From the NCBI GenBank assembly GCA_020350725.1, contig CP070719.1, forward strand, positions 2,006,970-2,044,388: a DNA stretch of 37,419 nucleotides, read 5' to 3'. The stretch's first letter is position 1. The number at the start of each line of letters is the position of its first letter. Below, in pieces: positions 3,040 through 28,355 of this stretch. Both the position numbers and the translations under genes were made by a program. The notes beneath the pieces were generated by a model. The model saw nothing but the letters and a program-made list of their open reading frames with translations. It searched no databases and had not been told where the DNA came from. This DNA is from a bacterium (GTDB lineage: Bacteria; BMS3Abin14).

Positions 3040-4077
3040 ATGTCCGATCTTGTTACCGCAGACCCCCTCCGGGTCGAGAACTGGGATTCCCTGGTCTCGC
3101 AGCACCCGGGGGCGACCATATTCCACTCGGCCCGGTGGGCGAGGGTCCTGTCCGAGTCCTACGGATACCGGCCGAGGTATTTCGCCACCATCACGTCCGG
3201 CGGCCTCGAGACCCTGGTCCCGTGCATGGAGATCGCCAGTTTCCTGACCGGCAGGCGGGGCGTGAGCCTTCCCTTCACCGACTCCTGCCCTCCCCTTCTC
3301 TCCGGCCCCGAGACCTTCCCGGACCTGCTGCCCGCCATCACCGCGTTCGGCCGATCGGCGGGATGGAGGACCTTCGAGGCCCGGGACGTCGACCTCGGCC
3401 CGGCCGACGGCATCCCCGCCACGGCCTACCTCGACCACGACCTCGACCTGACGCCGGGACCCGACGGTCTCAAGGCCGGCCTGAGGAGCAGCACGGCGAG
3501 GAACATCAAGAAGGCGGCCAAATCCGGCGTGCAGATCCGCGAGGAGAACACCATGGCCGGCATGCGTGAATTCTGCCGGTTGAACAGCATGACCCGGAGA
3601 GAGCACGGCCTGCCCCCCCAGCCCTTCCGGTTCTTCACCCGGCTTTTCGACCACGTCATCGCCGGGGGATGGGGCAGGGTCCTGCTCGCGGTCAAGGACG
3701 GCCGCACGGCCGCCGGCGCCGTCTTCCTCCACTTCAACGGACGGTCGATCTACAAGTACGGCGCCTCCGACCGTGCCTTCCAGACCCTTCGCGCCAACAA
3801 CCTCGTCATGTGGGACGCCATCCGGAGGTACGCCGAGGAGGGTTTCGCGTCCTTTTCCTTCGGGCGGACCGAGCCGGACAACGAGGGCCTCCGGCAGTTC
3901 AAGGGAGGCTGGGGGGCGTCGGAACGGGAGATCCGATACGTGAAATACGCCATGAAGGAAGACGGCTTCGTCAAGGACAGCCTGAAGACCACCGGGTGGC
4001 ACAACCGGGTCTTCTCCCGCATGCCCATACCCGCCCTCAACGCCGTAGGGACCGTCCTCTACCGACACATGGGGTGA
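3040..4077 (+). CDS. FemAB-like / GNAT-fold acyl- or aminoacyltransferase
   Basis: A 345-residue protein of the FemAB-related type found in exopolysaccharide loci. It has an N-terminal half with IFHSARWARVL (27-37), the basic stretch RNIKKAAKSGV (154-164) that begins the second GNAT-like half, and the C-terminal FGRTEPDNEGLRQFKGGWG segment (274-292), typical of this family. FemAB proteins transfer aminoacyl groups from tRNA to an amino group; the substrate of the polysaccharide-associated branch is generally unknown. The ATG at 3040 has GAGG six bases upstream. It starts a tightly spaced run, with only 4 bases to the next start. No signal peptide or membrane segment is seen, so it should be cytoplasmic. 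The family is fairly sure; the donor and acceptor are not. Confidence 0.8.
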   Translation: MSDLVTADPLRVENWDSLVSQHPGATIFHSARWARVLSESYGYRPRYFATITSGGLETLVPCMEIASFLTGRRGVSLPFTDSCPPLLSGPETFPDLLPAITAFGRSAGWRTFEARDVDLGPADGIPATAYLDHDLDLTPGPDGLKAGLRSSTARNIKKAAKSGVQIREENTMAGMREFCRLNSMTRREHGLPPQPFRFFTRLFDHVIAGGWGRVLLAVKDGRTAAGAVFLHFNGRSIYKYGASDRAFQTLRANNLVMWDAIRRYAEEGFASFSFGRTEPDNEGLRQFKGGWGASEREIRYVKYAMKEDGFVKDSLKTTGWHNRVFSRMPIPALNAVGTVLYRHMG

Positions 4078-8645: not shown

Positions 8646-8646
8646 C

Positions 8647-9672
8647 ATGAACGCGAGCGTTATCAGCCAGGCTCAGAGGGGTGACTGGGATCGGTACATG
8701 GAGGAGAATCCCCTGTCCATCGCATGGCAGGCTTACGAATGGAGCCACCTCGTCCGGCAGCACTTCGGTTACCGCTTTTTCCCCCTGGCCGCCTTCGAGG
8801 GCGATTCGATCAGGGGGATCCTGCCCCTGTATCTGGTCAAAAGGATGGGGGGAGGCATCCGGATGATGTCCGTCCCCCACGCCGTGGCCGGCGGCATCCT
8901 GGCCGACGGGGACGACGCAACCGCCTGCCTGCTCCGGAAGGCCATCGATCTGGCGACGGAATGCTCGGCGACCGAGGTGGCCCTGAAGCAGTACAAGGTG
9001 AAGGTGAAAGGCGAGCTCAAGGTGGACGAGAACTACTTCAACCGGGAACTGACGCTTTCGGCCGGCATTGACGATGTCTGGAAGCACCTCTCCGAGGCGA
9101 ACAGGGACCAGATCGGGAGCATGGACGGCTCCGATCTGGTCCTGGATCACCCGTCGGAGAGGGTGGACGAGTTCTACCGTCTCGTCCTCGCCCACCACCA
9201 TCGGCGCGGCATCCCGTGCGTCTCCAAGAGATGGATCGGGGACCTGATCAGATTCGGCATGTACAGTATCGCGTTCCTGCGCAAGGGCGACAGGGTGCAG
9301 GCGGGAACCATGGTCAAGACCTTCAAGGACACCGTCTCCTTTCCCTTCACCTGCCTGACGGGCGACGATCCCCGGTCCGCCCAGGCCGTCTATCGCCTGT
9401 ATTGGGAACTCATCAAGAAGTTCACCCTGGGAGGGTACCGGATATTCCACTCCGGGAGGATCCCCCAGACGGAAGAGACCGATCCGTATCGCCTCGGGTG
9501 GGGAGGCGACAAGTACCCCTACTACTATCAGTATTACCCGAAGACCGTTTCGCAGACCGAGTTCTCAAAGAAAAGGGGAGCCAAGCGGAAATACTTCCAG
9601 ACCGTCTGGAAGGTCACCCCCCGTCCCCTGGTCAAAGCGCTCGGCCCCCTCATCGTCAGGCAGTTTCCATAG
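8647..9672 (+). CDS. FemAB-like / GNAT-fold transferase
   Basis: A 341-residue protein resembling the FemAB-related protein at 3040: SIAWQAYEWSHLVRQHFGY (24-42) corresponds to its IFHSARWARVLSESYGY region, and a C-terminal SGRIPQTEETDPYRLGWGG segment matches the family's GR-x-x-x-x-x-GL-x-x-FK-x-GW pattern. The usual basic R-N-x-I-R-K-A motif in the middle is replaced by EANRDQIGSMDG, so the acceptor or nucleotide contacts may differ. The ATG at 8647 begins one base after the previous stop; the frame is open further upstream inside the ligase gene but that part is a shadow. No signal peptide is visible. It is probably a transferase acting on the same pathway intermediate; aminoacyl versus acyl transfer cannot be decided. 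Confidence 0.75.
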   Translation: MNASVISQAQRGDWDRYMEENPLSIAWQAYEWSHLVRQHFGYRFFPLAAFEGDSIRGILPLYLVKRMGGGIRMMSVPHAVAGGILADGDDATACLLRKAIDLATECSATEVALKQYKVKVKGELKVDENYFNRELTLSAGIDDVWKHLSEANRDQIGSMDGSDLVLDHPSERVDEFYRLVLAHHHRRGIPCVSKRWIGDLIRFGMYSIAFLRKGDRVQAGTMVKTFKDTVSFPFTCLTGDDPRSAQAVYRLYWELIKKFTLGGYRIFHSGRIPQTEETDPYRLGWGGDKYPYYYQYYPKTVSQTEFSKKRGAKRKYFQTVWKVTPRPLVKALGPLIVRQFP

Positions 9673-10895: not shown

Positions 10896-12572
10896 ATGAT
10901 AGGCATTGTCTCCCGACCGGAACAGAGGGCCACCGTTGAGGAGTTCTTTCAACTGTTCAAGGTCCCGTGGGAATTCCATCAGGAGGGCAGGCGCTACCGC
11001 GTGCTGATCGTCACGGAACCCTCCGCGGCGCCGCTGTCCGCGGACCTGAACCTGCTTTTTTCCCCGGGATACTGCCCCGTCGACGGAGAGCACGGGACAG
11101 AGGTCCTTGCGGCGGACAGGGGCAGCCATGATCTCCTGCGGACTCCCTATGGCCAGCTGCCCATTCACACCGATCTTTGCCTCTTCCGGGGCTGCCCGGA
11201 TCCGATCGTCGAGACGACCCGCAGGACGTCAGCCGGTTACCGGGTCAGATCCGGCGGTCGGACTACCATCCGCATCGGTTTTGATCTCTTCGCCGAGGTC
11301 GAGCACCTCCTGCGGGGGAAACAGGGCGTAGAACATGCACTCCACCCGACGGTGGAGATCCTCATAGCGACGGTCCGCCGGTGGATCCTCGAAGCGGGCA
11401 TCCCTCTTCTGGAAATACCGCCGGTGCCTGCCGGATTCAAATTCATCTCCTGCCTGACCCACGATGTCGATTTCATGGGCATAAGGGAACACATCTTCGA
11501 CCGCTCCCTCTTCGGCTTCATCTACCGCGCTCTCTTCTCCTATTCCCTGACCGACCTGGTATCGGGCAGAGCGTCGAAAAAGCTCCTCCGGAACCTTCGA
11601 GCCCTTCTTTCCCTGCCCGGCATCTATCTGGGATTGACGGCCGACATCTGGAATCAGCTCGACCGCTATCTGGAGATCGAGGGGGAGAGAAAATCGACCT
11701 TCTATTTCCTCCCCTACAAGGGCAGGCCCGGGGATCGGATGCCCGGCCACGCCGGAGAGAAAAGGGCACCGGGATATCGGTCCTCCCGCTACGACGTCCA
11801 GGACCTGAAGGACTCGATCAGACGTCTGGTGGAGAGGGGCCATGAGGTCAGCCTCCATGGCCTGGACGCCTGGTGCAGCTCCGAGAGGGGAAAGGACGAA
11901 TTCGATGTCATACGCCGGCTCGCCGGTGTGGACCGGCTGGGGGTGCGGATGCACTGGCTCTACTTCTCCGAGGAATCCCCGAGGGCCCTCGACGACGCCG
12001 GCTTCTTCTACGATTCCACGCTGGGGTACAACGAGACGGTCGGATTCCGATCGGGAACCACCCAGGTCTACCGGCTGCCCGACTGCTCCCGGGTCCTGGA
12101 ACTGCCTCTCCACGTCCAGGACACGGCGATGCTCTACCCGGCACGCATGAACCTGTCCGAATCCGACGCCTTTACCCTCTGCCAGGAACTCATCTCCAAA
12201 CTGGCCATCTTCGGTGGAGTCCTGACCGTCAATTGGCACCAGAGGAGCCTCGGGCCCGAGAGAAACTGGGATGAATTCTACCTCAGGCTGCTCGCCGCCC
12301 TCGACTCCGAGAACGTCTGGTTCGCCACCGGCGGTCAGGCCGTCAGATGGTTCATGAAAAGGCGATCGGTTTCCTTCACCAGGAACTCCCCGGAGGGGAC
12401 GTCCTACGGATTGGTCTCCCATTATGCCGACGGATCCGGCCTGCCGGATCTCACCGTCAGGCATTACACGCCGGACAGAGACCCGGGGCACCCTCAGGCC
12501 TCTTCCGACGCAGCCCCTCCCTTCACCGACACCAGCTGGTCCGGTTCAGGGGAGATAACCCTCACCCTATAG
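10896..12572 (+). CDS. Long polysaccharide deacetylase family protein
   Basis: A 558-residue protein. The first 180 residues are an extra N-terminal region without a motif I can name, seen in long capsule-locus deacetylases. The NodB-like part follows with CLTHDVDF (Asp190, Asp192), EVSLHGLDAW (His321), GVRMHWLYF (350-358), FFYDSTLGY (370-378) and VNWHQR (His448). The second His of the canonical H-x3-H pair is absent after His321 (HGLDAW); some homologues of this type also have HG-x-x-x-S here, so this may be normal for the subfamily or may mean altered metal binding. There is no signal peptide, which suggests cytoplasmic action. The ATG at 10896 has no clear ribosome-binding site. An 82-base spacer precedes it, in which I see no gene. 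Confidence 0.78.
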   Translation: MIGIVSRPEQRATVEEFFQLFKVPWEFHQEGRRYRVLIVTEPSAAPLSADLNLLFSPGYCPVDGEHGTEVLAADRGSHDLLRTPYGQLPIHTDLCLFRGCPDPIVETTRRTSAGYRVRSGGRTTIRIGFDLFAEVEHLLRGKQGVEHALHPTVEILIATVRRWILEAGIPLLEIPPVPAGFKFISCLTHDVDFMGIREHIFDRSLFGFIYRALFSYSLTDLVSGRASKKLLRNLRALLSLPGIYLGLTADIWNQLDRYLEIEGERKSTFYFLPYKGRPGDRMPGHAGEKRAPGYRSSRYDVQDLKDSIRRLVERGHEVSLHGLDAWCSSERGKDEFDVIRRLAGVDRLGVRMHWLYFSEESPRALDDAGFFYDSTLGYNETVGFRSGTTQVYRLPDCSRVLELPLHVQDTAMLYPARMNLSESDAFTLCQELISKLAIFGGVLTVNWHQRSLGPERNWDEFYLRLLAALDSENVWFATGGQAVRWFMKRRSVSFTRNSPEGTSYGLVSHYADGSGLPDLTVRHYTPDRDPGHPQASSDAAPPFTDTSWSGSGEITLTL

Positions 12573-13787: not shown

Positions 13788-14852
13788 ATGGGCAAGATGA
13801 ATTTCGCTCTGGTAGGTTGTGGAAATATCGCCAAGAAATACGTCCACGTCTTTCAGAACCACCTGGACAACGCAAGGCTCGTCGGCTTCTGTGATCCGTG
13901 GCTGGAGCGGGCCAAGAAATTCGCCGACGAGGTCGGTGCGCCGGCGTTCCTGGAGGCCGGTCAGATGATGGACAAGATCGGAGACACCGTCGATGCCCTC
14001 TGCATCCTCACTCCAAGCGGGGTTCACGTCAACAACGTCGACGAACTGGTTCAGTACGGCAAACCACTGATCATCGAAAAACCGATGGCCCTCCGGCTGG
14101 ATGAGGCGGACGAGATCATCTGGAAGTGTGACGCCCACAAGGTCAAGATCTTCGTCGTCCATCAGAACCGGTACAACCTGCCCATCATCAAGGCCAGGGA
14201 GGCATTCGACCAGGGCCGGTTCGGAAAGCTCGTCATGGGCACCGTCAGGCTCCGGTGGAAGAGGGACCAGGCATATTACGATTCGGCGGACTGGCGCGGG
14301 ACATGGGCCTACGACGGAGGCGTCTTCACCAACCAGGCCAGCCACCACATCGACATGCTGACCTGGTTCATGGGCGAGGTGGAGAGCGTCAAGGCCGTCG
14401 GGATGACCCGACTGGTGAACATCGAATGCGAGGACACCGGTGCGGCCATTTTCAAGTTCTCCAACGGATCCCTGGGGATCGTCGAGGCTACGACCGCCAC
14501 CAGGCCAAGGGACCTCGAGGGCTCCATCAGCATCCTCGGCGAAAAGGGGACGGTGGTTATCGGAGGTTTTTTCATGAATGAGCTCACCACCTGGGAGTTC
14601 GAGGACCGCACTCCCGAAGACGACGAGATATTGGAGAAATTCGGCAAAAACCCCGACGGGTGGGGTTACAACGTGGCCGAATATCTCAAGGACGTGATCA
14701 GGGCGATATCGGAGAACAGGAGGGGCCTCGTGGACGGCCTCGAAGGCAGAAAATCCCTGGAGCTGATCAGTGCGATCTACGAGTCCATTGAAACGGGCAA
14801 CGACATTGATCTCAGATTCAGGCCCAAGAGATGCAAACTGGGGGTCCTATGA
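13788..14852 (+). CDS. Gfo/Idh/MocA oxidoreductase, WbpB/WlbA-like
   Basis: A 354-residue NAD(P)-dependent oxidoreductase with the dinucleotide-binding motif VGCGNIA (9-15), the EKP motif with Lys98 (97-99) and [15 protein letters not shown] (177-191), whose His186 matches the catalytic histidine of the family. Length and motifs fit WbpB/WlbA, which oxidises the 3-hydroxyl of UDP-N-acetylglucosaminuronic acid and hands the ketone to the aminotransferase WbpE. The next two genes are an N-acetyltransferase and a DegT aminotransferase, the same trio as wbpB-wbpD-wbpE; this context is the main reason for the call. The stop overlaps the next start (ATGA at 14849). An ATG at 13797 is an alternative start. 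The exact sugar substrate is inferred. Confidence 0.8.
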
Positions 14853-15454
14853 ACGAGAACATCAGAACATACAGCGGAGTCACACTGGGCCCGGGCGTCG
14901 TCGTGGAGGATTTCTGCATCCTCGGCGTACCGCCGCGCGGGATGAAAGAGGGAGATCTGGAGACCGTCATCGGGGCCAATGCGACGATCAGGTCCCACAC
15001 GGTCATATACGCCGGCAACAGGATCGGCGACAACCTGCAGACGGGCAACAAGGTCAACATAAGGGAGCTGAACGAGATCGGCGACAACGTCAGCATAGGG
15101 ACCCTGTCCGTCGTGGAGCACCACGTGAAGATCGGCAACGGTGTGCGGATCCACACCCAGGTCTTCGTTCCCGAATACACGATCGTCGAGGACGGGGCCT
15201 GGCTGGGACCCAACGTGGTGATAACCAACGCCAAGTACCCCCTGTCACCGGGGGTAAAGGAATCGATCGTCGGCCCCACCATCCGGAAGGGCGCGATCAT
15301 CGGAGCGAATTCCACCCTGCTGCCCGGGATCATAATAGGGGAGAACGCCATCGTGGGCGCCGGCTCGGTTGTCACCCGGGACGTTCCCGATCGAGCCGTC
15401 GTGGCCGGAAATCCGGCAAAGTTCATTAAATACAAGGAAGAGTTACCTTACTGA
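14849..15454 (+). CDS. Hexapeptide-repeat N-acetyltransferase, WbpD-like
   Basis: A 201-residue left-handed beta-helix acyltransferase built from repeated [LIV]-G-x-x-x-x turns ([48 protein letters not shown]) and ending with [12 protein letters not shown], as in many sugar acetyltransferases. WITH its neighbours it resembles WbpD/WlbB, which acetylates the 3-amino group of a UDP-2-acetamido-3-amino-uronic acid using acetyl-CoA; WbpD is of similar length. The start is set by the ATGA overlap with the previous stop and by GGGGGT just upstream; a longer frame from 14831 is less likely. It is likely a trimer in the cytoplasm. A different acyl donor or acceptor remains possible because hexapeptide enzymes are hard to tell apart. 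Confidence 0.8.
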
Positions 15455-15464
15455 GGAGGGAGAA

Positions 15465-16570
15465 ATGAACATACCTTTCGTTGATCTGAAAAGTCAGTAT
15501 GCGAGCATAAAGAATGAGATCGATACGGCCATATCGGAGGTGATCTCGAACACCGCCTTTGTCGGCGGCCCCTTCCTCAAGGCCTTCGAGGAAGAGTTCG
15601 CCGCCTTCTGCAGGACGAAATACTGCGTCGGCGTGGGCAACGGGACGGACTCCCTGTTCATCTCCCTCAAGGCCCTGGGAATCGGCGAGGGTGATGAGGT
15701 CATAACGGCGGCAAACAGTTTTGTGGCGACCTCGGAGGCCATCACCATGGCCGGGGCGAGGGTGAAGTTCGTCGACATCCATCCCGAGACCTACAACATC
15801 GACCCGGCCAGGATCGAGGAGAAGATCACGCCGAAGACGAAGGCCATCATTCCGGTCCACCTCTACGGCCAGCCGGCCGACATGGACCCCATCCTCGAGA
15901 TCGCGGCGAAACACGACCTCAGGATCGTGGAGGATGCCGCTCAGGCCCACGGCGCAGACTACAAGGGCAGGAGGATCGGGTCCATCGGAGACGCGGGGTC
16001 TTTCTCATTCTACCCGGGTAAGAACCTGGGCGCATACGGCGACGGCGGCGCCATCGTCACCGACAACCAGGAGCTGGCCGAAAAGGCGCACATGTTCGCC
16101 AATCACGGCAGGGCGGACAAATTCGGCCACAAGTTCGAGGGCGTCAACAGCCGGCTCGACGGGCTTCAGGCCGCCGTTCTCTCGGCCAAACTCAGGCACC
16201 TCGACGAGTGGACGGAGAGCCGCCGGAGGAACGCCTATCTCTACAACGAATACCTGGCCGATACGGACCTCGTCACCCCCCGGGAGATCGACGACGTCCG
16301 GGCCGTCTACCACCTCTACGTGGTGCGCGTCCCGAAGGACCGGCGGTCCGACCTGCAGGACTTCCTGCGATCGAAGGCGTCGCAACGGGCATCCACTACC
16401 CCATCGCCCTGCCGAACCTGAAGGCCTACGAGTATCTGAACCTCGATCCGGAGGATTTTCCCGAGGCGACCAGAGCGTCCCACGAGATCGTCTCACTGCC
16501 CATGTTCCCCGAGCTCACGGAGGATCAGATCCGCTTCACGGTCGACAGGGTCAAGGAGTTCTTCGCCTGA
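15465..16570 (+). pseudogene. DegT/DnrJ/EryC1 aminotransferase, WbpE-like, with one-base frameshift
   Basis: A PLP-dependent sugar aminotransferase of type I fold. From ATG 15465 (after the strong site GGAGGGAG) the first frame gives MNIPFVDLKSQY, NGTDSL (59-64), EDAAQAHG with Asp157, and SFYPGKNLGAYGDGG, whose Lys186 should bind PLP. At about 16376 the sequence reads aaggcgtc where aagggcgtc is expected. The first frame then runs into unrelated residues and stops at 16421, while the +2-shifted frame continues as GVATGIHYPIALPNLKAYEYL to the stop at 16570. Restoring one G gives about 368 residues, the normal length. Either a true mutation or a sequencing or assembly error. If intact, it would aminate the 3-keto sugar made by the WbpB-like enzyme using glutamate. 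Confidence 0.85.
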
Positions 16571-16653: not shown

Positions 16654-16691
16654 TCCCATCATGGAGCTTTTCCGGCGGAGTGAACCCAAAA

Positions 16692-17943: not shown

Positions 17944-19827
17944 ATGTGCGGCATCTGCGGACAGTACAATTACCTGAGCCAGAGACCGGCCGACCGGCAG
18001 ACCATCGAGCGGATGACGGAAAACGTCGTCCACAGGGGTCCCGACGACGAGGGATATCACTTCTCCGGTTCTCTGGGGCTGGGTTTCCGGAGGCTCTCCA
18101 TCATCGACCTTTCCGGCGGACACCAGCCCATGTCCGATGAAAACCGGAAGGTCTGGGTCGTCTTCAACGGCGAGATCTACAATTTCCCGGAACTGAAAAA
18201 GGAACTGCAGGACCTTGGCTACAGGTTCCGGACGCGCTCGGACACGGAGGTGATCGTTCACGGATATCGCCATTGGGGAACCGGCGTCTTCCAGCGGCTC
18301 AACGGCATGTTCGGCGTCGCCATCTGGGATGAGGACCGAAGGCGTCTCGTCCTCGGCCGCGACCCCATGGGGATCAAACTCGTCTACTATCGCCTGGACG
18401 ACGAGGGGATCACTTTCGGTTCCGAGATACGGTCCATCCTGGCCGCCAACGGGGCCGCCCCTGAGGTGGACCCCGTCGCCGTCAACCTGTTCCTCCGCTA
18501 CCGGTACACACCCTCGCCCCTGACCATCTACAGGGGGATCATGAAGCTGGCGCCGGGGACCATGCTGGTGGTGGAGAACGGCAGCGAGAGGGTGGAGCGC
18601 TGGTACAGGTACCGGCCCACCCTGTTCGACCCCCAGCCCAGCGACGACGAAGCGGCCCACGAGCTGCTGGAGATCTACAAGCGCGCCGTCAAGAGACATC
18701 TCCTGAGCGATGTCCCCGTGGGCCTGCTGCTCAGCGGAGGGATAGACTCCGGCATGCTCCTGGCCCTGATGAACCTCTACGGCGAGAACTGGCACACCTT
18801 CACCATCGGTTATGGGACCGCCATCTACAGGGACGATGAACTGAAGGATGCGGTCAGGACCGCCCAGCACTTCAAGACCACTCACTCGGCGGTCACCATC
18901 GACCAGAAAACCTTCGAGGAGAACCTTCCCAACATCGTCTCCTTCCTGGAAGAACCGATCGCCGCGTCCTCCATCGTGCCCATGTATTTCGTGTGCAAGC
19001 GGGCCAGGGAAGACGTCAAGGTCGCCCTGGTGGGGCAGGGTCCCGACGAGCTCTTTGGCGGCTATCCGAGGCACATCGGGGTCCGTTACGGCGCCCACTG
19101 GAGGAGGGCCCCGTCCTGGATGACCGACACCCTGGGAACCGCGGTGAGGAGACTGCCCCGGAACGAGACTCTCAAAAGGGGTGTCGAGTCACTGCGCACC
19201 GAGGGGAGGATGGAGAGATACCGAAACGTGTTCTCCCTCGTGCCGGGATCGCGGGTGGATTCCCTTTTTCATGACGGGCTGCTGCCCGAGGACACCGATG
19301 GCGAGATCCTGCGCTGCTGGGACGGTCTGGAGGAACTGATGGACGGCACCGACGAACTGGGGGGGTTCCAGATCCTCGAGGTGCGGTCCTCCCTCCCGGA
19401 TGAACTGCTCATGTACGCGGACAAGCTGTCCATGGCCCACAGTCTCGAGGTCCGTGTCCCCTATCTGGACAGGGAGATCGTGGAGTTCACCGAGCGCCTG
19501 TCCCAGGCCATGAAGGTGCGCTACGGAAGGAGAAAATGGCTGCACCGGAAAGTGTGCCGGGATTTCCTGCCGGGTGAGTTTCTGCGGCGAAAGAAGCGCG
19601 GTTTCGCCGTGAATGTCGTCGATGACTGGTTCCGGCGTTCCCTCGACGGCAAGATGGGGCAGTACCTGTCCGACGGCAAGTCCATTATGTACCAGTACCT
19701 CCAGCAGGACGTGGTGAGCAATATCCTGCAGGACCACCTCTCGGGCAGGCACGACTACCACAAGCTCCTCTTCAGTCTCGTGGTCTTCGAGGAATGGCTT
19801 CGCAACAGCGTCGGCGGCACCGGCTGA
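17944..19827 (+). CDS. asnB: Asparagine synthetase B-like glutamine amidotransferase
   Basis: A 627-residue two-domain enzyme of standard length. The N-terminal glutaminase domain has the nucleophile Cys2 (MCGICG), RGPDDEG (31-37), FNGEIYN (74-80) and SDTEVI (99-104). The C-terminal synthetase domain has the PP-loop SGGIDSG (264-270), GQGPDELFGGYPRH and YADKLSMAHSLEVRVPYLD. It uses glutamine ammonia and ATP to turn a carboxylate into an amide. In capsule and O-antigen loci such homologues (for example WbpS) are associated with amidation of uronic acids, which fits the WbpBDE-like cassette just upstream; free asparagine synthesis is the alternative. All catalytic residues expected are visible, so it should be active. 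Conversion of a uronic acid to a uronamide is my inference. Confidence 0.9.
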   Translation: MCGICGQYNYLSQRPADRQTIERMTENVVHRGPDDEGYHFSGSLGLGFRRLSIIDLSGGHQPMSDENRKVWVVFNGEIYNFPELKKELQDLGYRFRTRSDTEVIVHGYRHWGTGVFQRLNGMFGVAIWDEDRRRLVLGRDPMGIKLVYYRLDDEGITFGSEIRSILAANGAAPEVDPVAVNLFLRYRYTPSPLTIYRGIMKLAPGTMLVVENGSERVERWYRYRPTLFDPQPSDDEAAHELLEIYKRAVKRHLLSDVPVGLLLSGGIDSGMLLALMNLYGENWHTFTIGYGTAIYRDDELKDAVRTAQHFKTTHSAVTIDQKTFEENLPNIVSFLEEPIAASSIVPMYFVCKRAREDVKVALVGQGPDELFGGYPRHIGVRYGAHWRRAPSWMTDTLGTAVRRLPRNETLKRGVESLRTEGRMERYRNVFSLVPGSRVDSLFHDGLLPEDTDGEILRCWDGLEELMDGTDELGGFQILEVRSSLPDELLMYADKLSMAHSLEVRVPYLDREIVEFTERLSQAMKVRYGRRKWLHRKVCRDFLPGEFLRRKKRGFAVNVVDDWFRRSLDGKMGQYLSDGKSIMYQYLQQDVVSNILQDHLSGRHDYHKLLFSLVVFEEWLRNSVGGTG

Positions 19828-19865
19828 CGCCTCAGGATGCCCACCGGGAACAGACGAGGATTGCC

Positions 19866-20741
19866 ATGCGATACGTTCTTATCACCACCGCTCGAAACGA
19901 GGAACAGTACCTCGAGGAGACCATCCACTCCGTTATCCGCCAGACCGTCCTCCCCTTGAGATGGGTGATCGTCAGCGACGGCTCCACGGACAGGACGGAG
20001 GAGATCGTGGCGAAATATCTGCCTGATCATCCCTGGATGGACCTGCTGGCGCTTCCCGGGAGGGCCGAAAGGTCCTTCTCGGGTAAGGCGGACGCCTTCA
20101 ACCGCGGCCTGGGCAGGATCGACTCCCTGGACTATGAATACATCGGCAACCTCGACGCCGACGTTTCCTTCGGGGAGGACTATTTCGCCTACCTCCTCGG
20201 AGAGCTTGACCGGGACCCGGAACTCGGCGTCGCCGGAACCGATTACGTGGAGGGCGATTTCCACTCCTTCCGGGACAGCTACATCAGTGAAAACCACGTC
20301 AACGGGCAGATCCAGATGTTCCGCAGGGCCTGCTTCGACCAGATCGGCGGTTATCTGGCGATCCCCTACGGAGGGATCGATTGGGTGGCAGTGACGACGG
20401 CCCGCATGAAAGGATGGAAGACCCGCTCCTTTTCCGACCGCGTCTTCAACCACCTGCGCAGGATGGGAACTGAGGGGACCAACGTCCTCGGCGCCAGATT
20501 TCACTATGGGAAAAAGGACTATTTCCTCGGCGGCCATCCCCTGTGGCAGATATTCCGCAGCACGTTCCAGATGACCAAGAAACCCTACGTTCTGGGCGGG
20601 ACCCTTCTCCTCGCCGGCTACCTCTGGGCGTCGGCTACCATGGAAAAGCAGGTCCCCGAGGACCTCGAGAGGTTTCACAGGGGCGAACAGATGAAGCGGC
20701 TCCGGGGGATCTTCACCGGCACGGGGAACCGGAATGGATGA
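19866..20741 (+). CDS. Glycosyltransferase family 2
   Basis: A 291-residue GT-A fold enzyme. It opens with VLITTARNEEQYLEETIHS, has VSDGSTDRT (37-45) for nucleotide contact and NLDADVSF (95-102), whose Asp pair (97, 99) is the metal-binding DXD. Family 2 enzymes are inverting transferases that use nucleotide sugars. Near the C-terminus PYVLGGTLLLAGYLWA is hydrophobic and could anchor the protein to the membrane. The ATG at 19866 is chosen because the family motif begins right there; the frame is open 24 codons further up, overlapping asnB in another frame, without similarity. It should add one residue to the lipid-linked repeat unit. Confidence 0.85.
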   Translation: MRYVLITTARNEEQYLEETIHSVIRQTVLPLRWVIVSDGSTDRTEEIVAKYLPDHPWMDLLALPGRAERSFSGKADAFNRGLGRIDSLDYEYIGNLDADVSFGEDYFAYLLGELDRDPELGVAGTDYVEGDFHSFRDSYISENHVNGQIQMFRRACFDQIGGYLAIPYGGIDWVAVTTARMKGWKTRSFSDRVFNHLRRMGTEGTNVLGARFHYGKKDYFLGGHPLWQIFRSTFQMTKKPYVLGGTLLLAGYLWASATMEKQVPEDLERFHRGEQMKRLRGIFTGTGNRNG

Positions 20742-20819: not shown

Positions 20820-21782
20820 ATGCTGATGCAGGTCGGCAGAAAAGAGATAAACATCAGGGGCCATTATGTCCAGGTGGACTCGGTACGGTTGGACGCCAGG
20901 GAGATCGTGGTATCGGGAAAATTCCTTAAAACAGCGCGACTTACAGAGGAAATGTACGACGACGTCGACAACCCCGAGGTGCTGATCGACGGGCTGCGGC
21001 GATCCGGCCTCGACGTGGATATCTTCACCTTTCTGGAGAGATTCCCGGGGCCCGAGCCGAAATATGATTACCACCTCGAGTGGGAGGCCTATACGAGGAT
21101 GAACATCAAGACTTTCGATCACTGGTGGAACCATCAGATCCGGAAGGCCACCCGAAACAGGATCAGAAAGTCCCAAAAGGTCGGTGTTGTCGTTCGATCG
21201 GCCGCATTCAACGATGACCTTGTGGAGGCCATATCGAAAATATATAACGAGACATCGGTCCGACAGGGCAAGGAGTTCTGGCACTACGGAAAGGACCTTC
21301 AAGCCATCAGAAGAGATCTCTCCCGTGATCTTGACAGATCGGAGTTCTTCGGCGCCTACCACAACAACCAGTTGATAGGGTTCATGAAACTGCTGTACAC
21401 CGACGACATGGCCGATCCGGTCCTTTTCCTGTCCATGATGGAGCATTACGACAAATCACCCAACAACGCCCTGATGGCCAAGGCCGTGGAGGTCTGCGCG
21501 GAGAGGAACATCCACTATCTCGACTATGGTCGATGGAGAAGCGACAATCATGCCGCGTTTCTCATGGCCAACGGTTTTGAAAAGATGATCCTGCCCAGAT
21601 ATTACTGCCCCTTGTCCCGTAAAGGGACCATAGCCTTGAAATCACATCTCCATAAGGGGCTTCTCGGAGTGATCCCGCCCAGAACAGCGGATCGGCTGAA
21701 GGGCCTGCGGAGCAGGCTGATCTCCATGAAAAAGGTCACCGGCCCCCCGAGGAGCGCTGCCGGTGGGGATTGGGATAACTGA
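20820..21782 (+). CDS. FemAB-like / GNAT-fold transferase, paralogue A
   Basis: A 320-residue protein highly similar to the next gene. Shared landmarks are YVQVDSVRL (16-24), LDVDIFTFLERFPG (64-77), FDHWWNHQ (99-106), the basic segment RNRIRKSQKVGV (112-123) that recalls the FemAB R-N-x-I-R-K-A-x-K-x-G motif, FFGAYHNNQLIGFMKLLYTD, MMEHYDKSPNNALMAKAVEVC and NHAAFLMANGF. The last two resemble the acetyl-CoA-binding and closing motifs of GNAT folds. The N-terminal 80 residues are specific to this pair. The start ATG follows AGGGGA by a usual distance. Its TGA overlaps an ATG of the next frame. The region is AT-richer than the rest of the window. The substrate is unknown; acyl or aminoacyl transfer is likely. 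Confidence 0.7.
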   Translation: MLMQVGRKEINIRGHYVQVDSVRLDAREIVVSGKFLKTARLTEEMYDDVDNPEVLIDGLRRSGLDVDIFTFLERFPGPEPKYDYHLEWEAYTRMNIKTFDHWWNHQIRKATRNRIRKSQKVGVVVRSAAFNDDLVEAISKIYNETSVRQGKEFWHYGKDLQAIRRDLSRDLDRSEFFGAYHNNQLIGFMKLLYTDDMADPVLFLSMMEHYDKSPNNALMAKAVEVCAERNIHYLDYGRWRSDNHAAFLMANGFEKMILPRYYCPLSRKGTIALKSHLHKGLLGVIPPRTADRLKGLRSRLISMKKVTGPPRSAAGGDWDN

Positions 21783-21808
21783 TGGACGGAGCAGGGGAGG
21801 AGAAAACC

Positions 21809-22726
21809 ATGCAGGTCTGCAAGGTCGAATACAATATCGCCGGGGACTACGTCCAGGTGGACTCGGTCCGGCTGGGCAATAATGTCGTGGTGGTCACGGG
21901 CAAGCACCTGAAGACGGCCAGGATCATCGAGGAAATGCACGAGGACGTCGAGAATCCCGAGTTCGTGATCAACGGGCTGAAGGAGTCCGATCTTGACCTG
22001 GATATCTTCACCTTCCTGGAGCGGTTTCCGGGATCCGAGCCCAGGTATGACTATCACACCGAATGGGAAGCCTTCACCAGGATGCACATCACGAATTTCG
22101 ATCACTGGTGGCAAAACCAGACCACGAAAAAGGGAAGGAACAGGCTGAGAAAGTCAGAAAAGGCGGGCGTTGTCGTCGAACGGGTCGAGTACAATGACGA
22201 GCTGCTGGACGGGATCGTGAACATATACAACGAAACACCCATCAGGCAGGGTCGGTATTTCTGGCATTACAACAAGGATATCGCCATCGTAAAAAAGGAC
22301 CTGTCGCGGGATCTGGCCAGATCGGATTTTTTCGGCGCTTATCACGACGGCCGCCTGATCGGGTTCATGAAGCTGCTCTACGCGGACAGGATGGCCTTTC
22401 CTGCCCTCTGTGTCTCCATGATCGAGCATTATGACAAGTGTCCCAACAACGCGCTCATCGCCAAGGCCGTGGAAGTCTGCGCGGAGAGGGGTATCCCCTA
22501 TTTCTATTACGGACACTGGAGAAGGGACAGGCACGCCCAGTTCCTTGAGGCGAACGGGTTCGGAAAGGTGCTCCTCCCCAGATACTACGTCGGTCTAACC
22601 GGTAAGGGTAAGATCGCCCTGAAACTGAATCTCCACAGGGGACCTCTCGGACTCATCCCGGACAGCATCCAGGAGGGCTTAAAGGTCCTTCGGGAACGGG
22701 TGTTGTCCGCCAAACACGGGGATTGA
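21809..22726 (+). CDS. FemAB-like / GNAT-fold transferase, paralogue B
   Basis: A 305-residue tandem paralogue of the gene at 20820. It shares YVQVDSVRL, LDLDIFTFLERFPGSEP, FDHWWQNQ, RNRLRKSEKAGVVV, FFGAYHDGRLIGFMKLLY, EHYDKCPNNALIAKAVEVC and HAQFLEANGFGKVLLPRYY. The start at 21809 is chosen because it follows GGGGAGGAG by a good distance and aligns with the paralogue's beginning; an ATG at 21782 that overlaps the previous stop (TGATG) would add nine residues. The pair looks like a gene duplication followed by divergence, for example CS versus HS-type charge changes around the basic segment, perhaps to serve two positions or two donors on the same polymer. No signal peptide is seen. Confidence 0.7.
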   Translation: MQVCKVEYNIAGDYVQVDSVRLGNNVVVVTGKHLKTARIIEEMHEDVENPEFVINGLKESDLDLDIFTFLERFPGSEPRYDYHTEWEAFTRMHITNFDHWWQNQTTKKGRNRLRKSEKAGVVVERVEYNDELLDGIVNIYNETPIRQGRYFWHYNKDIAIVKKDLSRDLARSDFFGAYHDGRLIGFMKLLYADRMAFPALCVSMIEHYDKCPNNALIAKAVEVCAERGIPYFYYGHWRRDRHAQFLEANGFGKVLLPRYYVGLTGKGKIALKLNLHRGPLGLIPDSIQEGLKVLRERVLSAKHGD

Positions 22727-22732: not shown

Positions 22733-23494
22733 ATGGAAAACAGGAAGGATTTCTGGAAGAACTATTGGGATTCCCAGGCGGAAAAACCCCTCTCCGACTA
22801 CGAGATCGACCGGGGCGTGTCTTCCGACATGGAGGCCGCCAAACAGGCGTCTGAAGACATGACCATCGGCTTTGTCGAGCACAAGGCAACAGACGTTGTG
22901 TTTGATGCGGGGTGTGGAACAGGGGTCAATCTCAGCAGGCTGGGGCCCGGGGTCCGATCCCTGGTCGGCATGGACTATTCACCCGGGATGATCATGCGGG
23001 CCAGGCAGAGACTGGCGAATGAAAACGTCGGCAATGCCGGCTTGCTGGTCGGCTCCATATCCCACATTCCGACAAAGCCGGGTTTCTTCGACAAGATCGT
23101 CTGCATCAGCGTTCTGCACTACCTGAACGACGAGGACTGCGAGAGAGCCCTCAGGGAGTTCGCAAGGATCTCCAGGAACGGGGCCCTCCTCGTCCTCCAC
23201 GTAAAGAATCTTACCTCCCTTTACCTTTCCACCCTTCTTCTCGCCAAGAAGTTCAAACAGCTCCTGGGCAAGAGGGCGAATATTGAATACTACAGGCCGA
23301 GAAAATGGTATGAGAGGAAACTGTCGGAGTTGAACATGACCCTGTTGGACTACCATTCGGACAACATCCTCATCGTCGAGTTCCTGCCAAGGTCTCTCGC
23401 CCGCGCTCTGGGCAGGTTCGAGAGGAAATATCTGAAAAACAGGTTCTTCATGAAATACGGCTCCGACCTCATCCTGAAGGTGAAGATCAAATAG
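22733..23494 (+). CDS. Class I SAM-dependent methyltransferase
   Basis: A 253-residue methyltransferase. Motif I, which binds S-adenosylmethionine, is VFDAGCGTG (57-65); motif II is LVGMDYSPGMI (the acidic residue contacting the ribose); KIVCISVLHYLNDEDCERAL gives the later motifs. The C-terminal third (from about 170) has many basic and aromatic residues and no hallmark of its substrate. It starts 6 bases after the FemAB-like paralogue and probably shares its transcript. It could O- or N-methylate a sugar of the repeat unit or a transferred group. Small-molecule methylation outside the pathway is also possible. Confidence 0.85.
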   Translation: MENRKDFWKNYWDSQAEKPLSDYEIDRGVSSDMEAAKQASEDMTIGFVEHKATDVVFDAGCGTGVNLSRLGPGVRSLVGMDYSPGMIMRARQRLANENVGNAGLLVGSISHIPTKPGFFDKIVCISVLHYLNDEDCERALREFARISRNGALLVLHVKNLTSLYLSTLLLAKKFKQLLGKRANIEYYRPRKWYERKLSELNMTLLDYHSDNILIVEFLPRSLARALGRFERKYLKNRFFMKYGSDLILKVKIK

Positions 23495-23551: not shown

Positions 23552-25381
23552 ATGCCGGGTATTGCCGGAATCATCAGCAGGCGACCACGGGACAGGAATG
23601 AAAATGACCTGCATTCGATGACCGGATGCATGATGCACGAACCGTCCTACCGCTCGGGGTCGTACATCAACGAGGACCTCGGTCTGTACGCGGGCTGGGT
23701 GTGCCACGGGGACTCCTTCGCGGACTGCATGCCCGTCATGAACGCCGGAAAGGACATCGTGCTGCTGTTCTACGGGGAGAACTTCGTCGACGGCTCCGTC
23801 ATAGAGAGGCTGAAAAAGCAGGGCCATGAGGCGGACCGGTCCAATGCGGGTTATCTCGTCCACCTTTACGAGGAGGATCCGGTCAATTTTTTTCAGCTCC
23901 TGAACGGATATTTCAGCGGGGTGGTCGTCGACCTTCGGGAAGGGAAGATCGTCCTCTTCAATGACCGCTACCGGATGGGCCGGGTCTACTACCACCAGGG
24001 AGAGGAGGATTTCATCTTCTCCTCCGAAGCGAAATCACTTCTCAAGGTCCGGCCCGAACTGCGGGAGATCGACCATGAGGGTCTTGGCCAGTTCTTCGCC
24101 TGGGACTGCGTCCTGGAGGAGAAGACCCTCTTCAAGGATATCTTTCTCCTGCCGGGGGGTTCCCGGTGGACCTTCGCCGGCGGAAGCGTTCCGGAGAAAA
24201 GGACCTATTTCCACCCAAATGAATGGGAGAACAGACCCGTCCTCGGAAAGGATGCTTTCTACGACAGACTGACGGAGACATTCGCGAATATCCTGCCCCG
24301 CTACTTCGACGACCTGGACAGGATCGCGATGTCGGTGAGCTCCGGGCTGGATACCCGGGCCATCCTGGCCTGCATAGACGTCGAACCCGGACAGCTTCCC
24401 TGCCACACCTTCAGCGGGATCCACCGCGAGACCCTCGACGCGATCATCGCCCGCAAGATCGCCAAGGCCTGGCATCAGCCCCACGAGGTTCTCCGGCTCG
24501 GCAGGGACTTCCTGTCCCGTTTCGATGAATTCTCCGCAAAGACCGTTTACGTTACGGACGGGTGTCTGAACGTAAACGGATCCTATGACATCTACTTCAA
24601 TGAGCTCCTGAGAAACATCCGTCCGGTCAGGATGACGGGGAAATTCGGCAGCGAGATCGTGAGAAGTCACAGCATGTTGAGGAAGCCCTTTGCGTTTCCC
24701 GAGGAGGTCTTCCATCCGGATTTTAAAGGGCATTTCGACGCGGCTGTGGAAAAGCTCGATGAGAATCGAAAATGCCACAGACTTACATTCGCCGCGTTCA
24801 AGGAAATACCCTGGAACGAATACGGCCGTCTTTCCATGGAGATGTCCAAATTGACGGTCCGGACACCCTACATGGACAACGACCTCGTGGAGCTCATGTA
24901 CCAGGCTCCGCCGGGTGAGAGGGACACCCTCGAGATCAGTCTCCGGCTGGTGGATCACGGCAATCCCGCCCTGCGCCGTATCATGACGGACAGGGGCACA
25001 GCGGGACAAAACGGTTACTATTTCTCCAACCTCTCCAGGCTGTACCATTACTATCTGGTGAAGTCGGAATACATGTACCTCTGGCAGATACCGAACTGGC
25101 TCGCCAGGATCGACAGCATACTGTCCCCTCTGCATCCTGAAAAGCTGTTCACCGGACGTCATCAGCTGGGCAGTTACAGGCTGTGGTACCGCGATGAACT
25201 GTCCGACCACATCCGCAGTGTCCTGCTGGACAGCCGGACCAAGAGCAGGCCGTATCTGAACCGGTCCTTTCTGGAAAAGATGATCGACACCCACACGAGA
25301 GGACATGCCAATTATACGGGGGAGATCAATAAAATATTATCCGCCGAACTGATTCACAGACAGCTCGTGGAAGACATTTAG
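23552..25381 (+). CDS. Asparagine synthetase-like protein lacking the N-terminal cysteine
   Basis: A 609-residue homologue of AsnB with both domains, but the start reads MPGIAGI where active enzymes read MCGIAGI, so the glutaminase nucleophile Cys2 is replaced by Pro. The FNGEIYN loop is also lost (LLFYGENFVD, 71-80). The synthetase domain keeps a PP-loop variant, SVSSGLDT (261-268), in place of SGG-x-DS, and the late segment SKLTVRTPYMDNDLVELMY. ATP use is therefore plausible, but hydrolysis of glutamine is not. In beta-lactam synthetase the same loss goes with intramolecular amide formation, so this protein may adenylate a carboxylate and join it to an amine other than ammonia. No upstream start could restore the Cys. 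The function is inferred only. Confidence 0.8.
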   Translation: MPGIAGIISRRPRDRNENDLHSMTGCMMHEPSYRSGSYINEDLGLYAGWVCHGDSFADCMPVMNAGKDIVLLFYGENFVDGSVIERLKKQGHEADRSNAGYLVHLYEEDPVNFFQLLNGYFSGVVVDLREGKIVLFNDRYRMGRVYYHQGEEDFIFSSEAKSLLKVRPELREIDHEGLGQFFAWDCVLEEKTLFKDIFLLPGGSRWTFAGGSVPEKRTYFHPNEWENRPVLGKDAFYDRLTETFANILPRYFDDLDRIAMSVSSGLDTRAILACIDVEPGQLPCHTFSGIHRETLDAIIARKIAKAWHQPHEVLRLGRDFLSRFDEFSAKTVYVTDGCLNVNGSYDIYFNELLRNIRPVRMTGKFGSEIVRSHSMLRKPFAFPEEVFHPDFKGHFDAAVEKLDENRKCHRLTFAAFKEIPWNEYGRLSMEMSKLTVRTPYMDNDLVELMYQAPPGERDTLEISLRLVDHGNPALRRIMTDRGTAGQNGYYFSNLSRLYHYYLVKSEYMYLWQIPNWLARIDSILSPLHPEKLFTGRHQLGSYRLWYRDELSDHIRSVLLDSRTKSRPYLNRSFLEKMIDTHTRGHANYTGEINKILSAELIHRQLVEDI

Positions 25382-25409: not shown

Positions 25410-26768
25410 ATGCATCCATATCTAGCCCTTCTCCTGTACATAGCATTCATCTCGGCCGTCCTCCGTTTCGATCTGAAAAGACACCCCCGCGTTTCCGGCG
25501 CGGTCTGGGTCCCCCTGATCTGGATGTCTCTGAGCGGCTCGAGGAATCCCAGCCAGTGGCTCAACCTGAACCAATGGGGATCCGATCAGTTCCAGTACTT
25601 CCAGGAATATATGGGAGGCAATCCCACGGACAGGGCGGTCTTCCTGCTCCTGATCCTGGCGGGGCTGTTTATCCTGTTCAGGAGGAGAATAGATAAAATT
25701 CAGCTGCTGAAAACCAACCTCATGCTGTTCCTTTTTATTTCTTACTGTCTGGCCAGTCTGCTCTGGTCTGACTTTCCGACGGTGGCAGGCAAGAGACTGG
25801 TCAAGGCGACCGGCGATTACATCATGGTCCTGGTTGTCCTGACGGAAACACACTTCCTCGAGAACCTGGAGGCGTTGATAAGGAGAAGCGGTTACATCCT
25901 CATTCCGGGATCCGTGCTCCTGATGAAATATTTTCCCTACGGAAGGATCTTCTCCCCGTGGGGCGGGTCCGAATACACGGGCGTCTCCACCAGCAAGAAC
26001 ATGCTCGGCGCACTGTGCCTGATATACGGCTTCTACTTCATCTGGAGCATGGTGCGGGTTCGAAAGGGGGAGAAAACACTCTACGACAGGAAGGAATACT
26101 ACCTGTACGCTTTCATGCTTGTCATGATCCTGTGGATGCTTCTGAAGGCGCCGAGCATGACGTCGACCCTGTGCCTGCTGTTTTCCGTATCCATGGTTCT
26201 CGTCCTGCACTTTCCCGCGATCAGGAGGAACCCCCTGCGGATCCGCTTTCTGGTCATCTATACGGCTGTCTTCCTCACCATCATCCAGTTCTCCGCGGAC
26301 ATGATACCCGACCTTCTGGCTTTTCTGGGGCGGGACATGACGCTGACGGGGAGGATCCCCCTCTGGGAACAGCTCACATCCATGGATATTAACCCCGTGC
26401 TCGGTGCCGGCTACGAGAGTTTCTGGCTCGGGGGGAGGCTGGAGGAGGTGTGGTCCACGCACTGGTGGCACCCCAACCAGGCCCACAACGGGTATCTGGA
26501 GATCTACCTGAACCTCGGCTGGACCGGCTTGATTCTACTCGGGGGAGTCCTGTACTCGACCTACAGGAAGGCCAAAAGATCCCTGGTCGAAAATTTCCAG
26601 TACGGGACCTTTCGCATGGTGGCTCTGACCATCATCATTATTTTCTCCCTGCTCGAGGCGGCGTTCAAGGGGCTCCACATCATTTGGTTCCTGTTCCTTC
26701 TCGCCGCCATGGAATACCCGACCGCCCCCGGCGACGGTGAAAGCGCACCTCGCCTCCAGGCGCTATGA
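25410..26768 (+). CDS. O-antigen ligase/polymerase (Wzy/WaaL) family membrane protein
   Basis: A 452-residue polytopic membrane protein with about ten hydrophobic segments (for example LALLLYIAFIS, AVFLLLILAGLFILF, LMLFLFISYCLASLLW, FLVIYTAVFLTII). A large periplasmic loop lies late in the protein and contains LTGRIPLWEQL, GAGYESFW and WHPNQAHNGYLEIYLNLGW; H-x-x-x-x-x-x-x-E-like motifs of this kind (AHNGYLE) are typical of the Wzy_C/O-antigen ligase family. These enzymes join lipid-linked glycans to a growing chain or to lipid A. Because a Wzx-type flippase follows directly, a polymerase (Wzy) role is the better reading. The ATG at 25410 has only a weak ribosome-binding site. Confidence 0.85.
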   Translation: MHPYLALLLYIAFISAVLRFDLKRHPRVSGAVWVPLIWMSLSGSRNPSQWLNLNQWGSDQFQYFQEYMGGNPTDRAVFLLLILAGLFILFRRRIDKIQLLKTNLMLFLFISYCLASLLWSDFPTVAGKRLVKATGDYIMVLVVLTETHFLENLEALIRRSGYILIPGSVLLMKYFPYGRIFSPWGGSEYTGVSTSKNMLGALCLIYGFYFIWSMVRVRKGEKTLYDRKEYYLYAFMLVMILWMLLKAPSMTSTLCLLFSVSMVLVLHFPAIRRNPLRIRFLVIYTAVFLTIIQFSADMIPDLLAFLGRDMTLTGRIPLWEQLTSMDINPVLGAGYESFWLGGRLEEVWSTHWWHPNQAHNGYLEIYLNLGWTGLILLGGVLYSTYRKAKRSLVENFQYGTFRMVALTIIIIFSLLEAAFKGLHIIWFLFLLAAMEYPTAPGDGESAPRLQAL

Positions 26769-26816: not shown

Positions 26817-28355
26817 ATGTCCCCCAAAAATCAAAAGTATTTCAATACCGACCATCTCAAGCCGGAACTGAAGAGGCACGCCGTCAGGGGTGCCGGTGCC
26901 ACGATCTTCTCCAATGTCATGAGCTACGCCATCCAGATGATCGGCACCATCGTCCTGGCCAGGCTCCTCAGTCCCGACGATTTCGGCCTGATCACCATGA
27001 TCACCGCCTTCAGCATCCTCTTCCAGAATTTCGGCATGAGGGGTTTCACGGAGGCCACCGTCCAGGCCGAGGAGATCGATCACAGGAAGATCAGCACGCT
27101 CTTCTGGATCCATCTGGCCATCAGCCTCACCCTCGCCCTGGCCTTTATCGCCTGTGCCCCCCTCATCGCCAGGTTCTACAAGGAACCCAGGCTCGTCCTG
27201 CTGGCCGTCGCCATCTCAACGAACTTCCTGCTGTTTGCCCTGGCCACCCAGCACCTGGCCCTCCTGACGCGCAATATGCAGTTTTACCGCATCGCCGGGA
27301 TCGAGATCGTGGCCAACATCCTCAGCGTGACCGCAGGCATATCTCTGGCTCTGAAAGGGGCGAGCTACTGGTCTCTTGTGGCCAGGCGGGTGTCCATTCC
27401 CCTGGGGATGGCCATAGGGGCCTGGATCCTGTGCCGATGGCTGCCCGGCCTGCCGGCCGTCCGCACGGGCGTGGGTAAAATGGTCAGGTTCGGCATGAAC
27501 ACCTACGGCAACTTCACCCTGAATTATCTGTCCAGGAATCTGGACAAGGTCCTCATCGGATGGCGCCACGGAGCTCAGTCGCTGGGGTTCTACGACAGGG
27601 CCTATTACCTGTTCGTCATGCCCGTCAACCAACTGTCCTATCCCCTGACAAACGTCGCTGTTTCAGCGCTGAGCAGGCTGCGTGACGACCCCGCGAAATT
27701 CAGGGATTATTACCTGAAATCCCTCTCCATGCTCGCCCTGATCGGGATGCCCCTCAGTGCCGGGCTGACCCTGGCAGGCAGGGACTTTATCCTCCTGCTC
27801 CTCGGCCCCCAGTGGGGCAAGGCGGGGGAGATCTTCACCCTGTTCGGCCCCGCCATCGGCATCATCCTGATATACGGCACGCACGGATGGCTTCACCTCT
27901 CCCTGGGACGGGCCGACCGCTGGTTTCGGTGGGGGATCTTCGAGCTCGTGATCACAGCCCTGTTTTTCATGATGGGGTTACCCTTCGGTGCGTCCGGGGT
28001 CGCCGTGGCCTACGTATTGTCGATTTTTCTCCTCACCGGTCCGGGCCTGTGGTATGGCGGCAAACCCATCGGGCTTTCCGTCCTCTCCATGTTCGGGGCC
28101 ATCTGGAAGTTCACCCTGTCGGCGCTTGCCGCGGGGCTGATCTCCTGGTATCTTCTGTACTTCGCCGGTACGATCCCCCAGCTGTTCGCGGGGCTCAACG
28201 TCTTTGTGAGGATCGTCGTAGCGTCCATCGTCTGTTCGATCCTGTATTTCGTCCTCCTGGTCATCTCCCACGGCGGTTACCAGCCGATAAGGCAGTTTCT
28301 CTCCCTCGCCCAGGAGATGGTCCCCGGCCTTTCCAGGATAAAAAGGACCGGTTGA
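26817..28355 (+). CDS. Polysaccharide flippase, Wzx/WzxC-like (MOP superfamily)
   Basis: A 512-residue protein with 12 or more hydrophobic segments. It opens with the family signature RGAGATIFSNVMSYAIQMIGTIVLARLLSPDDFGLITMI in the region 24-62, where ARLLSP-x-x-FG is the hallmark of oligosaccharide flippases. Further on, LDKVLIGWRHGAQSLGFYDRAY matches the WzxC type. Flippases move the lipid-linked repeat unit from the cytoplasmic to the periplasmic face. It follows the Wzy-like gene, giving a minimal Wzx/Wzy pair. The ATG at 26817 follows GGGAGAGAAG. No charged or catalytic oddities were noticed. Confidence 0.9.
   Translation: MSPKNQKYFNTDHLKPELKRHAVRGAGATIFSNVMSYAIQMIGTIVLARLLSPDDFGLITMITAFSILFQNFGMRGFTEATVQAEEIDHRKISTLFWIHLAISLTLALAFIACAPLIARFYKEPRLVLLAVAISTNFLLFALATQHLALLTRNMQFYRIAGIEIVANILSVTAGISLALKGASYWSLVARRVSIPLGMAIGAWILCRWLPGLPAVRTGVGKMVRFGMNTYGNFTLNYLSRNLDKVLIGWRHGAQSLGFYDRAYYLFVMPVNQLSYPLTNVAVSALSRLRDDPAKFRDYYLKSLSMLALIGMPLSAGLTLAGRDFILLLLGPQWGKAGEIFTLFGPAIGIILIYGTHGWLHLSLGRADRWFRWGIFELVITALFFMMGLPFGASGVAVAYVLSIFLLTGPGLWYGGKPIGLSVLSMFGAIWKFTLSALAAGLISWYLLYFAGTIPQLFAGLNVFVRIVVASIVCSILYFVLLVISHGGYQPIRQFLSLAQEMVPGLSRIKRTG

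Follow-up and report, generated by a model that had tools for sequence, protein, structure and literature searches.

Two adjacent, similar genes in a bacterial polysaccharide locus raise the question of what a pair of FemAB-like transferases does side by side. To address this question, we analyzed the genes within a stretch of 37,419 nucleotides (the window, on which all positions are given) and compared them with relatives elsewhere. The central features are as follows:

20820..21782, + strand: copy A, predicted FemX-fold (double GNAT) transferase (open reading frame, PF13480, model and fold match)
21780..21784, + strand: TGATG, shared by the stop codon of A and the earliest candidate start codon of B
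21809..22726, + strand: copy B, sister paralogue of A (open reading frame, PF13480, BLASTP, trees)

Two adjacent genes with shared motifs

We confirmed both open reading frames and found the proteins to be identical at 192 of 302 residues (64%, BLASTP E 2e-147), with the motifs YVQVDSVRL, LERFPG and RNR[IL]RKS present in both, as the original prediction had described. The TGATG junction and a second, better start 27 bases further on (ATG at 21809) were likewise borne out. This second ATG is probably the true start of B, because a good ribosome-binding sequence (GGGGAGGAG) lies upstream of it and because the protein then begins MQV, matching M3 of A (ATG 20826). Copy A is 320 aa long (318 aa if begun at 20826) and B 305 aa from 21809 or 314 aa from 21782. 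PF13480 (GNAT Acetyltransf_6) passes the Pfam cut-off of 22 in both copies (31.4 bits for A and 23.5 for B), and PF02388 (FemAB) reaches 22.3 bits in A, under its cut-off of 24, and is not listed for B. An NCBIfam profile search at E 0.01 matched neither A nor B to TIGR03019.

The pair is a lineage-specific duplication that is not recent

A search of the source genome returned A and B and no third copy, and the family was not found in 192 other genomes, a set that includes 11 others of the source phylum. The first relative came from a Candidatus Sulfotelmatobacter record (L003) in the Acidobacteriota, where we detected the family in 7 of 396 genomes of a phylum set, 48 of 349 of one class, and 4 of 142 and 6 of 193 of two other classes; these sets overlap and together hold 59 distinct genomes with a relative. 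One match was present in 47 of the 59 genomes and more than one in 12, some of these being contig-edge fragments, with per-genome copy numbers in the 349-genome set standing as lower bounds (at most six candidates per genome were scored). We read 68 loci around the matches and checked tandem neighbours there separately, which revealed two other full-length tandems (G622 and G657) and one full-length copy preceded by a fragment (G801). The two full-length tandems consist of copies that are 37% (G622) and 36% (G657) identical and fall in two separate clades, and are therefore not local duplicates. By contrast, A and B are sisters in both trees with 100/100 support, and the closest sequences outside the pair share 43% and 44% identity with them. 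The larger tree omits four fragments (L115_4155, L120_8456, L120_8038 and L121_4920), and the 62-row family alignment (A5) leaves aside rows below 300 bits and L133-L139.

Judged from these trees and copy numbers, the pair is a separate, lineage-specific duplication and not a fixed unit. We thus abandoned the idea that the genes are always found together, given that a single match was the result in most genomes and that neither of the two other full-length tandems consists of sister copies. It had also been reasoned that single-copy orthologues in most related loci would point to a simple recent duplication. The single copies are indeed the rule, but the duplication is not recent, as dS between A and B is about 1.33 and near saturation. 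Together with a dN/dS of 0.19, this indicates that both copies have long been kept under constraint.

The transferase family has no dedicated model among the Pfam and NCBIfam models searched: at E 0.01, PF13480 matches 19 of 62 members, PF00583 16 and PF02388 2, and TIGR03019 weakly matches 7 (best 4.1e-05). We found nothing on the family in open-licence PMC papers. A plasmid source was also considered, but a plasmid collection gave no match. In one genome (G819), a transferase gene is split between two open frames (L120:8038-8917), and another copy lies on a different contig (L110).

A FemX-like fold with a predicted shortened first half

A structure model of A, built from nine family members (mean pLDDT 86.2), has as its best full-length match in VIA-align FemX (6snr; Z 19.3, rmsd 3.5, 259 residues, model 1..279). 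The aminoacyl-tRNA peptide synthases Sba18 and Sbb17 (9wqy and 9wqw) tie with FemX at Z 18.9 over about 245 residues, followed by FemXVv, FemA and MprF; further down the list is the CoA-binding tandem GNAT VipF (Z 15.1, rmsd 7.9). Foldseek likewise placed Sba18/Sbb17 and FemX at the top. The Sba18 and Sbb17 structures differ from our case in being complexed with the antibiotic precursor streptothrisamine, and identity is 12-14%. These matches support the predicted FemAB-like assignment of the pair and, more precisely, a FemX-like double GNAT fold for A.

Sequence-only comparison with the PDB gave a different picture, with single-domain GNATs such as PaiA, and not FemX, as matches. A plain N-acyltransferase of an amino sugar, using an acyl-CoA donor instead of an aminoacyl-tRNA, would fit these best sequence matches, the share of family members that match PF13480 or PF00583, and the presence of VipF in the fold list. 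We nevertheless regard this as a rather unlikely description of the family, since its best full-length fold matches are aminoacyl-tRNA enzymes and the FK lysine of such enzymes is invariant in the relatives read.

The first 80 residues had been thought to form a domain unlike that of the other FemAB-like proteins in the window, of which there are two:

3040..4077, + strand: FemAB-like protein, TIGR03019-like under the cut-off, FK kept
8632..9672, + strand: FemAB-like protein, TIGR03019-like under the cut-off, YR at the FK place

In sequence this distinction stands, as a profile comparison with a seven-member FemAB-like alignment (these two proteins and five relatives) starts only at column 102. 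It does not extend to structure: in the full-length model the match to FemX already begins at residue 1, so the segment is most simply taken as the first GNAT half of a FemX fold in shortened form, and we gave up the notion of a novel N-terminal domain, the full-length match extending over residues 1-279. When the 121-residue N-terminal part was modelled alone, Foldseek gave no match at E <= 0.001 and VIA-align reached a best Z of 4.3, led by metallo-beta-lactamases and by Elp123 residues 422-540, which belong to the acetyltransferase portion of Elp3; single-domain GNATs reached Z about 3 over 1..93. This isolated result is compatible with a reduced GNAT or with none, and our suggestion of a shortened GNAT half draws on the full-length alignment.

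Both copies carry leucine where all relatives covering the site keep a lysine

Comparison of active-site residues, which the original prediction had proposed as a check on divided roles, drew attention to one position:

21561..21563, + strand: codon CTC, Leu248 of A (FemX Lys305 position)
22544..22546, + strand: codon CTT, equivalent Leu of B

According to a review, the lysine at this place is the one reactive residue close to the substrate of FemX (PMC12945691). Aligned with FemX (1ne9), the FK motif of the FemAB-like proteins ends on K at position 305, and a profile comparison aligns the FK of the pair's family on this FK (probability 95.8). All 69 relatives with a residue at this position have Lys (all 72 non-window rows were used, and three are gapped at the lysine); both window copies have Leu, through different codons. 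The loop before the lysine position is five residues shorter in the window copies than in most relatives; this short loop is not special to the window, because L018 and L137 share the gap and yet keep Lys. Outside the family, the 8632 protein has YR where the 3040 protein has FK (compared by eye), another natural loss at this position, so the lysine is not universal among FemAB-like proteins.

At a threshold of at least 95% conservation in 62 relatives, 33 columns are conserved, and both copies keep 27 of these. Lost in A and B together are A92, K248 and one Tyr in the gapped loop; A alone has lost P146, and B alone L234 and P264. At 80% conservation the lone deviations are equal, with three columns in A and three in B. 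Among the residues common to A and B but seen in no more than 3% of relatives are A90, T92, R93, M94, H181, P200, L202, W239, H244 and L248. The comparison thus uncovered a change shared by the two copies and no clear split between them. The simplest history would be that the pocket changed before the duplication, with the Lys305-type residue lost in the common ancestor of A and B, and this ancestral loss makes it probable that both are altered in catalysis or substrate.

A redundant duplication, with neither a divided role nor changed chemistry, would agree with the mostly single copies elsewhere and with the equal number of lone deviations in A and B. We consider this distinctly improbable, as 64% identity at the dN/dS observed amounts to long retention of both copies, and as it leaves the shared loss of the lysine unexplained.

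A cysteine-less asparagine-synthase-like ligase is the recurrent neighbour

The genes around the pair belong to a polysaccharide locus:

17944..19827, + strand: AsnB1, asparagine-synthase-like, glutaminase Cys kept (MCG)
19794..20741, + strand: family 2 glycosyltransferase, upstream of the pair, a frequent neighbour
22733..23494, + strand: SAM methyltransferase between the pair and AsnB2 (PF13649)
23552..25381, + strand: AsnB2, asparagine-synthase-like ligase, begins MPG, without the glutaminase Cys
25410..26768, + strand: O-antigen ligase/polymerase-like protein (Wzy_C; Wzy), frequent in the neighbourhood
26817..28355, + strand: polysaccharide flippase-like protein (Wzx)

Across the 68 loci, an AsnB2 open frame lies within 450 bp of the transferase on the same strand in 52 and within 3.8 kb in another 6, and no AsnB2 occurs in the stretch read at 10. 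Where the sequence extends at least 5 kb to either side (44 loci), AsnB2 adjoined the transferase in 35 (33 downstream); the next commonest neighbour, Wzy, was within 5 kb in 35 of the 44 and adjacent in 6. The window order (A, B, methyltransferase, AsnB2, Wzy, Wzx) is partly repeated elsewhere, with transferase-methyltransferase-AsnB2 in L093 and transferase-AsnB2-Wzy-Wzx in L003. Among the 396 genomes of the phylum set, 7 carry the transferase and 10 carry AsnB2, with all 7 in common (Fisher p 4e-13, genomes counted as independent). The three genomes with AsnB2 and no transferase comprise a contig that starts inside AsnB2 (L035) and two diverged AsnB2 genes (L036 and L037). A separate search of 163 genomes found AsnB2 only in the source genome.

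These two diverged AsnB2 genes (L037:5864-7717 and L036:9099-10007) have a TupA-type ATP-grasp gene directly upstream and no FemX-like transferase. L037 has two such genes in tandem; in L036 the TupA gene was seen by tblastn only, and AsnB2 is broken. It is as if a TupA-type ATP-grasp had taken the place of the transferase as the amide-forming partner of the diverged AsnB2.

With regard to AsnB2 itself, Cys2 is present in none of the 58 N-termini read, including that of the window, and the Asn of the NGE motif in AsnB1 is also lost in all eight AsnB2 proteins compared. An ATP-pyrophosphatase-type motif, [ST][GS]G[LIVM]D[ST]R, occurs in 53 of 59 AsnB2 proteins (SSGLDTR in the window), and the six misses are L071, L075, L093, L134 and two fragments at contig edges, L119 and L136. 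Beta-lactam synthetase, a relative of AsnB2, is not known to have the glutaminase Cys either. The AsnB2 profile matches the PDB entry 7ylz, asparagine synthetases and, weakly, 1jgt; AsnB2 differs from the beta-lactam synthetase/hydroxyamidotransferase group in its mostly TGGLDTR-type motif and its place in polysaccharide loci. Of the two asparagine-synthase-like proteins of the window locus, that at 17944-19827 keeps the glutaminase cysteine and that at 23552-25381 lacks it; the former passes the general asparagine synthase model TIGR01536. What emerges is a recurrent Acidobacteriota pair in loci of the exopolysaccharide or O-antigen type, in which a FemX-fold transferase is followed, usually directly, by an asparagine-synthetase-like ligase without the residue needed for glutamine use.

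The heterodimer or two-position model of the original prediction can be weighed against this neighbourhood. It accords with the long retention of both genes (dS 1.33, dN/dS 0.19), with tandems before AsnB2 elsewhere (two full-length copies in G622, and a full-length copy with its preceding fragment in G801) and with the two tandem TupA-type genes that precede the AsnB2 of L037. However, most genomes with the family (47 of 59) have one match, only 3 of the 33 highly conserved columns distinguish A from B (P146, L234 and P264), and the G657 pair is without AsnB2 beside it in the stretch read. We therefore doubt that A and B are partners in a heterodimer or that each modifies its own position.

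A putative module for amide decoration

From the paralogy of A and B, their predicted fold, the linkage to AsnB2, its missing cysteine and the shared Lys-to-Leu change, we propose a putative FemX-like module for amide decorations on an exopolysaccharide precursor, duplicated in the window lineage with changed chemistry, and we give this reading an even chance of being correct. In this proposal, an ordinary family member would attach an aminoacyl group, or a different acyl group, to an amine on a sugar precursor. AsnB2 is predicted to form amides without glutamine: it would activate a carboxylate with ATP and join it to an amine that is not derived from glutamine. Together, transferase and AsnB2 would make amide decorations before polymerisation and flipping. 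Weighing against such a module are the methyltransferase that separates the pair from AsnB2 in the window and the 10 of 68 loci without AsnB2 in the stretch read.

What the family does in general may not apply to A and B, because both are without the residue underlying the proposed aminoacyl-tRNA mechanism. On comparative grounds, it is probable that the chemistry or the substrate of the two copies has changed, or that they now serve as binding partners, with both under purifying selection. If they were catalytically silent and served as a subunit that binds or scaffolds AsnB2 or the precursor, this would account for the Leu that both carry in place of the reactive FemX residue described in PMC12945691 (Lys in all 69 relatives covering the site), alongside the retention of other conserved residues (27 of 33 columns in both). 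The strong constraint on both genes speaks against such silence, and the polar residues special to A and B (R93, H181 and H244) would be equally explained by changed chemistry, so that we hold a purely structural role to be unlikely. Returning to the favoured module with changed chemistry, a more speculative version, to which we assign little likelihood, is that the window lineage has converted a FemX-type aminoacyl-tRNA transferase into a lysine-independent two-subunit or two-step enzyme acting with the cysteine-less ligase, which would yield a polysaccharide with two types of amide decoration or an inter-residue amide link without glutamine. The pair offers a natural test of the FemX mechanism, as two diverged copies have kept the fold and most conserved residues without the lysine that is central to the proposed aminoacyl transfer.

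Comparison with known systems

The FemABX aminoacyl-tRNA transferases, among them Weissella viridescens FemX, resemble A in the double GNAT fold (residues 1-279) and share the FK motif with the relatives of the family. The window pair differs in a first GNAT half that appears shortened, in the Leu at Lys305 and in the acceptor, which would be a polysaccharide precursor.

A second comparison is with the Wbp/Vim linking-sugar pathway. There, VimA is reported to confer Ser or Gly specificity on the linking sugar, VimE is its proposed deacetylase and WbpS amidates it, and VimA is reported to match TIGR03019 (PMC7468200). The window contains a similar assortment, in that a FemAB-like protein has an AsnB amidotransferase, a match resembling VimE and genes of Wbp type in its vicinity:

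10896..12572, + strand: VimE-like partial match, NF053580 (E 3.4e-15, 55.6 bits against a cut-off of 440)
13788..16421, + strand: Wbp-pathway-like set (putative pathway roles), made up of the next three genes
13788-14852, + strand: Gfo/Idh/MocA oxidoreductase
14831-15454, + strand: hexapeptide acetyltransferase-like protein
15465-16421, + strand: DegT aminotransferase, whose frame seems to shift near the end

The 10896..12572 protein had no Pfam match at E 0.01. VimA was compared by its description only; A and B differ from it in having no TIGR03019 match, and the usual partner in their family is the cysteine-less AsnB2. All window matches to TIGR03019, TIGR03108, VimE and Wbp-like models fall under the curated NCBIfam cut-offs, and the Wbp/Vim resemblance is therefore only a lead. 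Should the transferase and AsnB2 together add amino acids to exopolysaccharide precursors, the Wbp/Vim idea would be extended to the Acidobacteriota.

TIGR03019 itself describes FemAB proteins associated with XrtA/PEP-CTERM. The family of A and B is similar at the profile level to the two window proteins of this type and their five relatives, and differs in that A and B gave no match to the model and no PF09721 is present in the genome. We set aside a PEP-CTERM/exosortase system, given that a search with the exosortase profile PF09721 alone returned no match in the source genome at E 0.001.

Other features of the window

The genes for A, B, the methyltransferase, AsnB2 and Wzy have a GC content of 54-56.5%, against a window mean of 61%. 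Because glycosyltransferase genes at 12588 and 30123 are also at 56%, the low GC gives only a weak hint of a separate origin of the block from A to Wzy. Within 16250-16660, the DegT frame stops at 16421 and C-terminal-like sequence continues in another frame, which suggests a frameshift or a sequencing error. Among the polysaccharide genes are also a DUF362 protein (5072-6532) and a PaaK-like ligase (7278-8645). Lastly, two proteins encoded 3.6 kb apart (28398-30089 and 33689-35053) share 78% identity across 426 residues, and neither matched a Pfam model at E 0.01.
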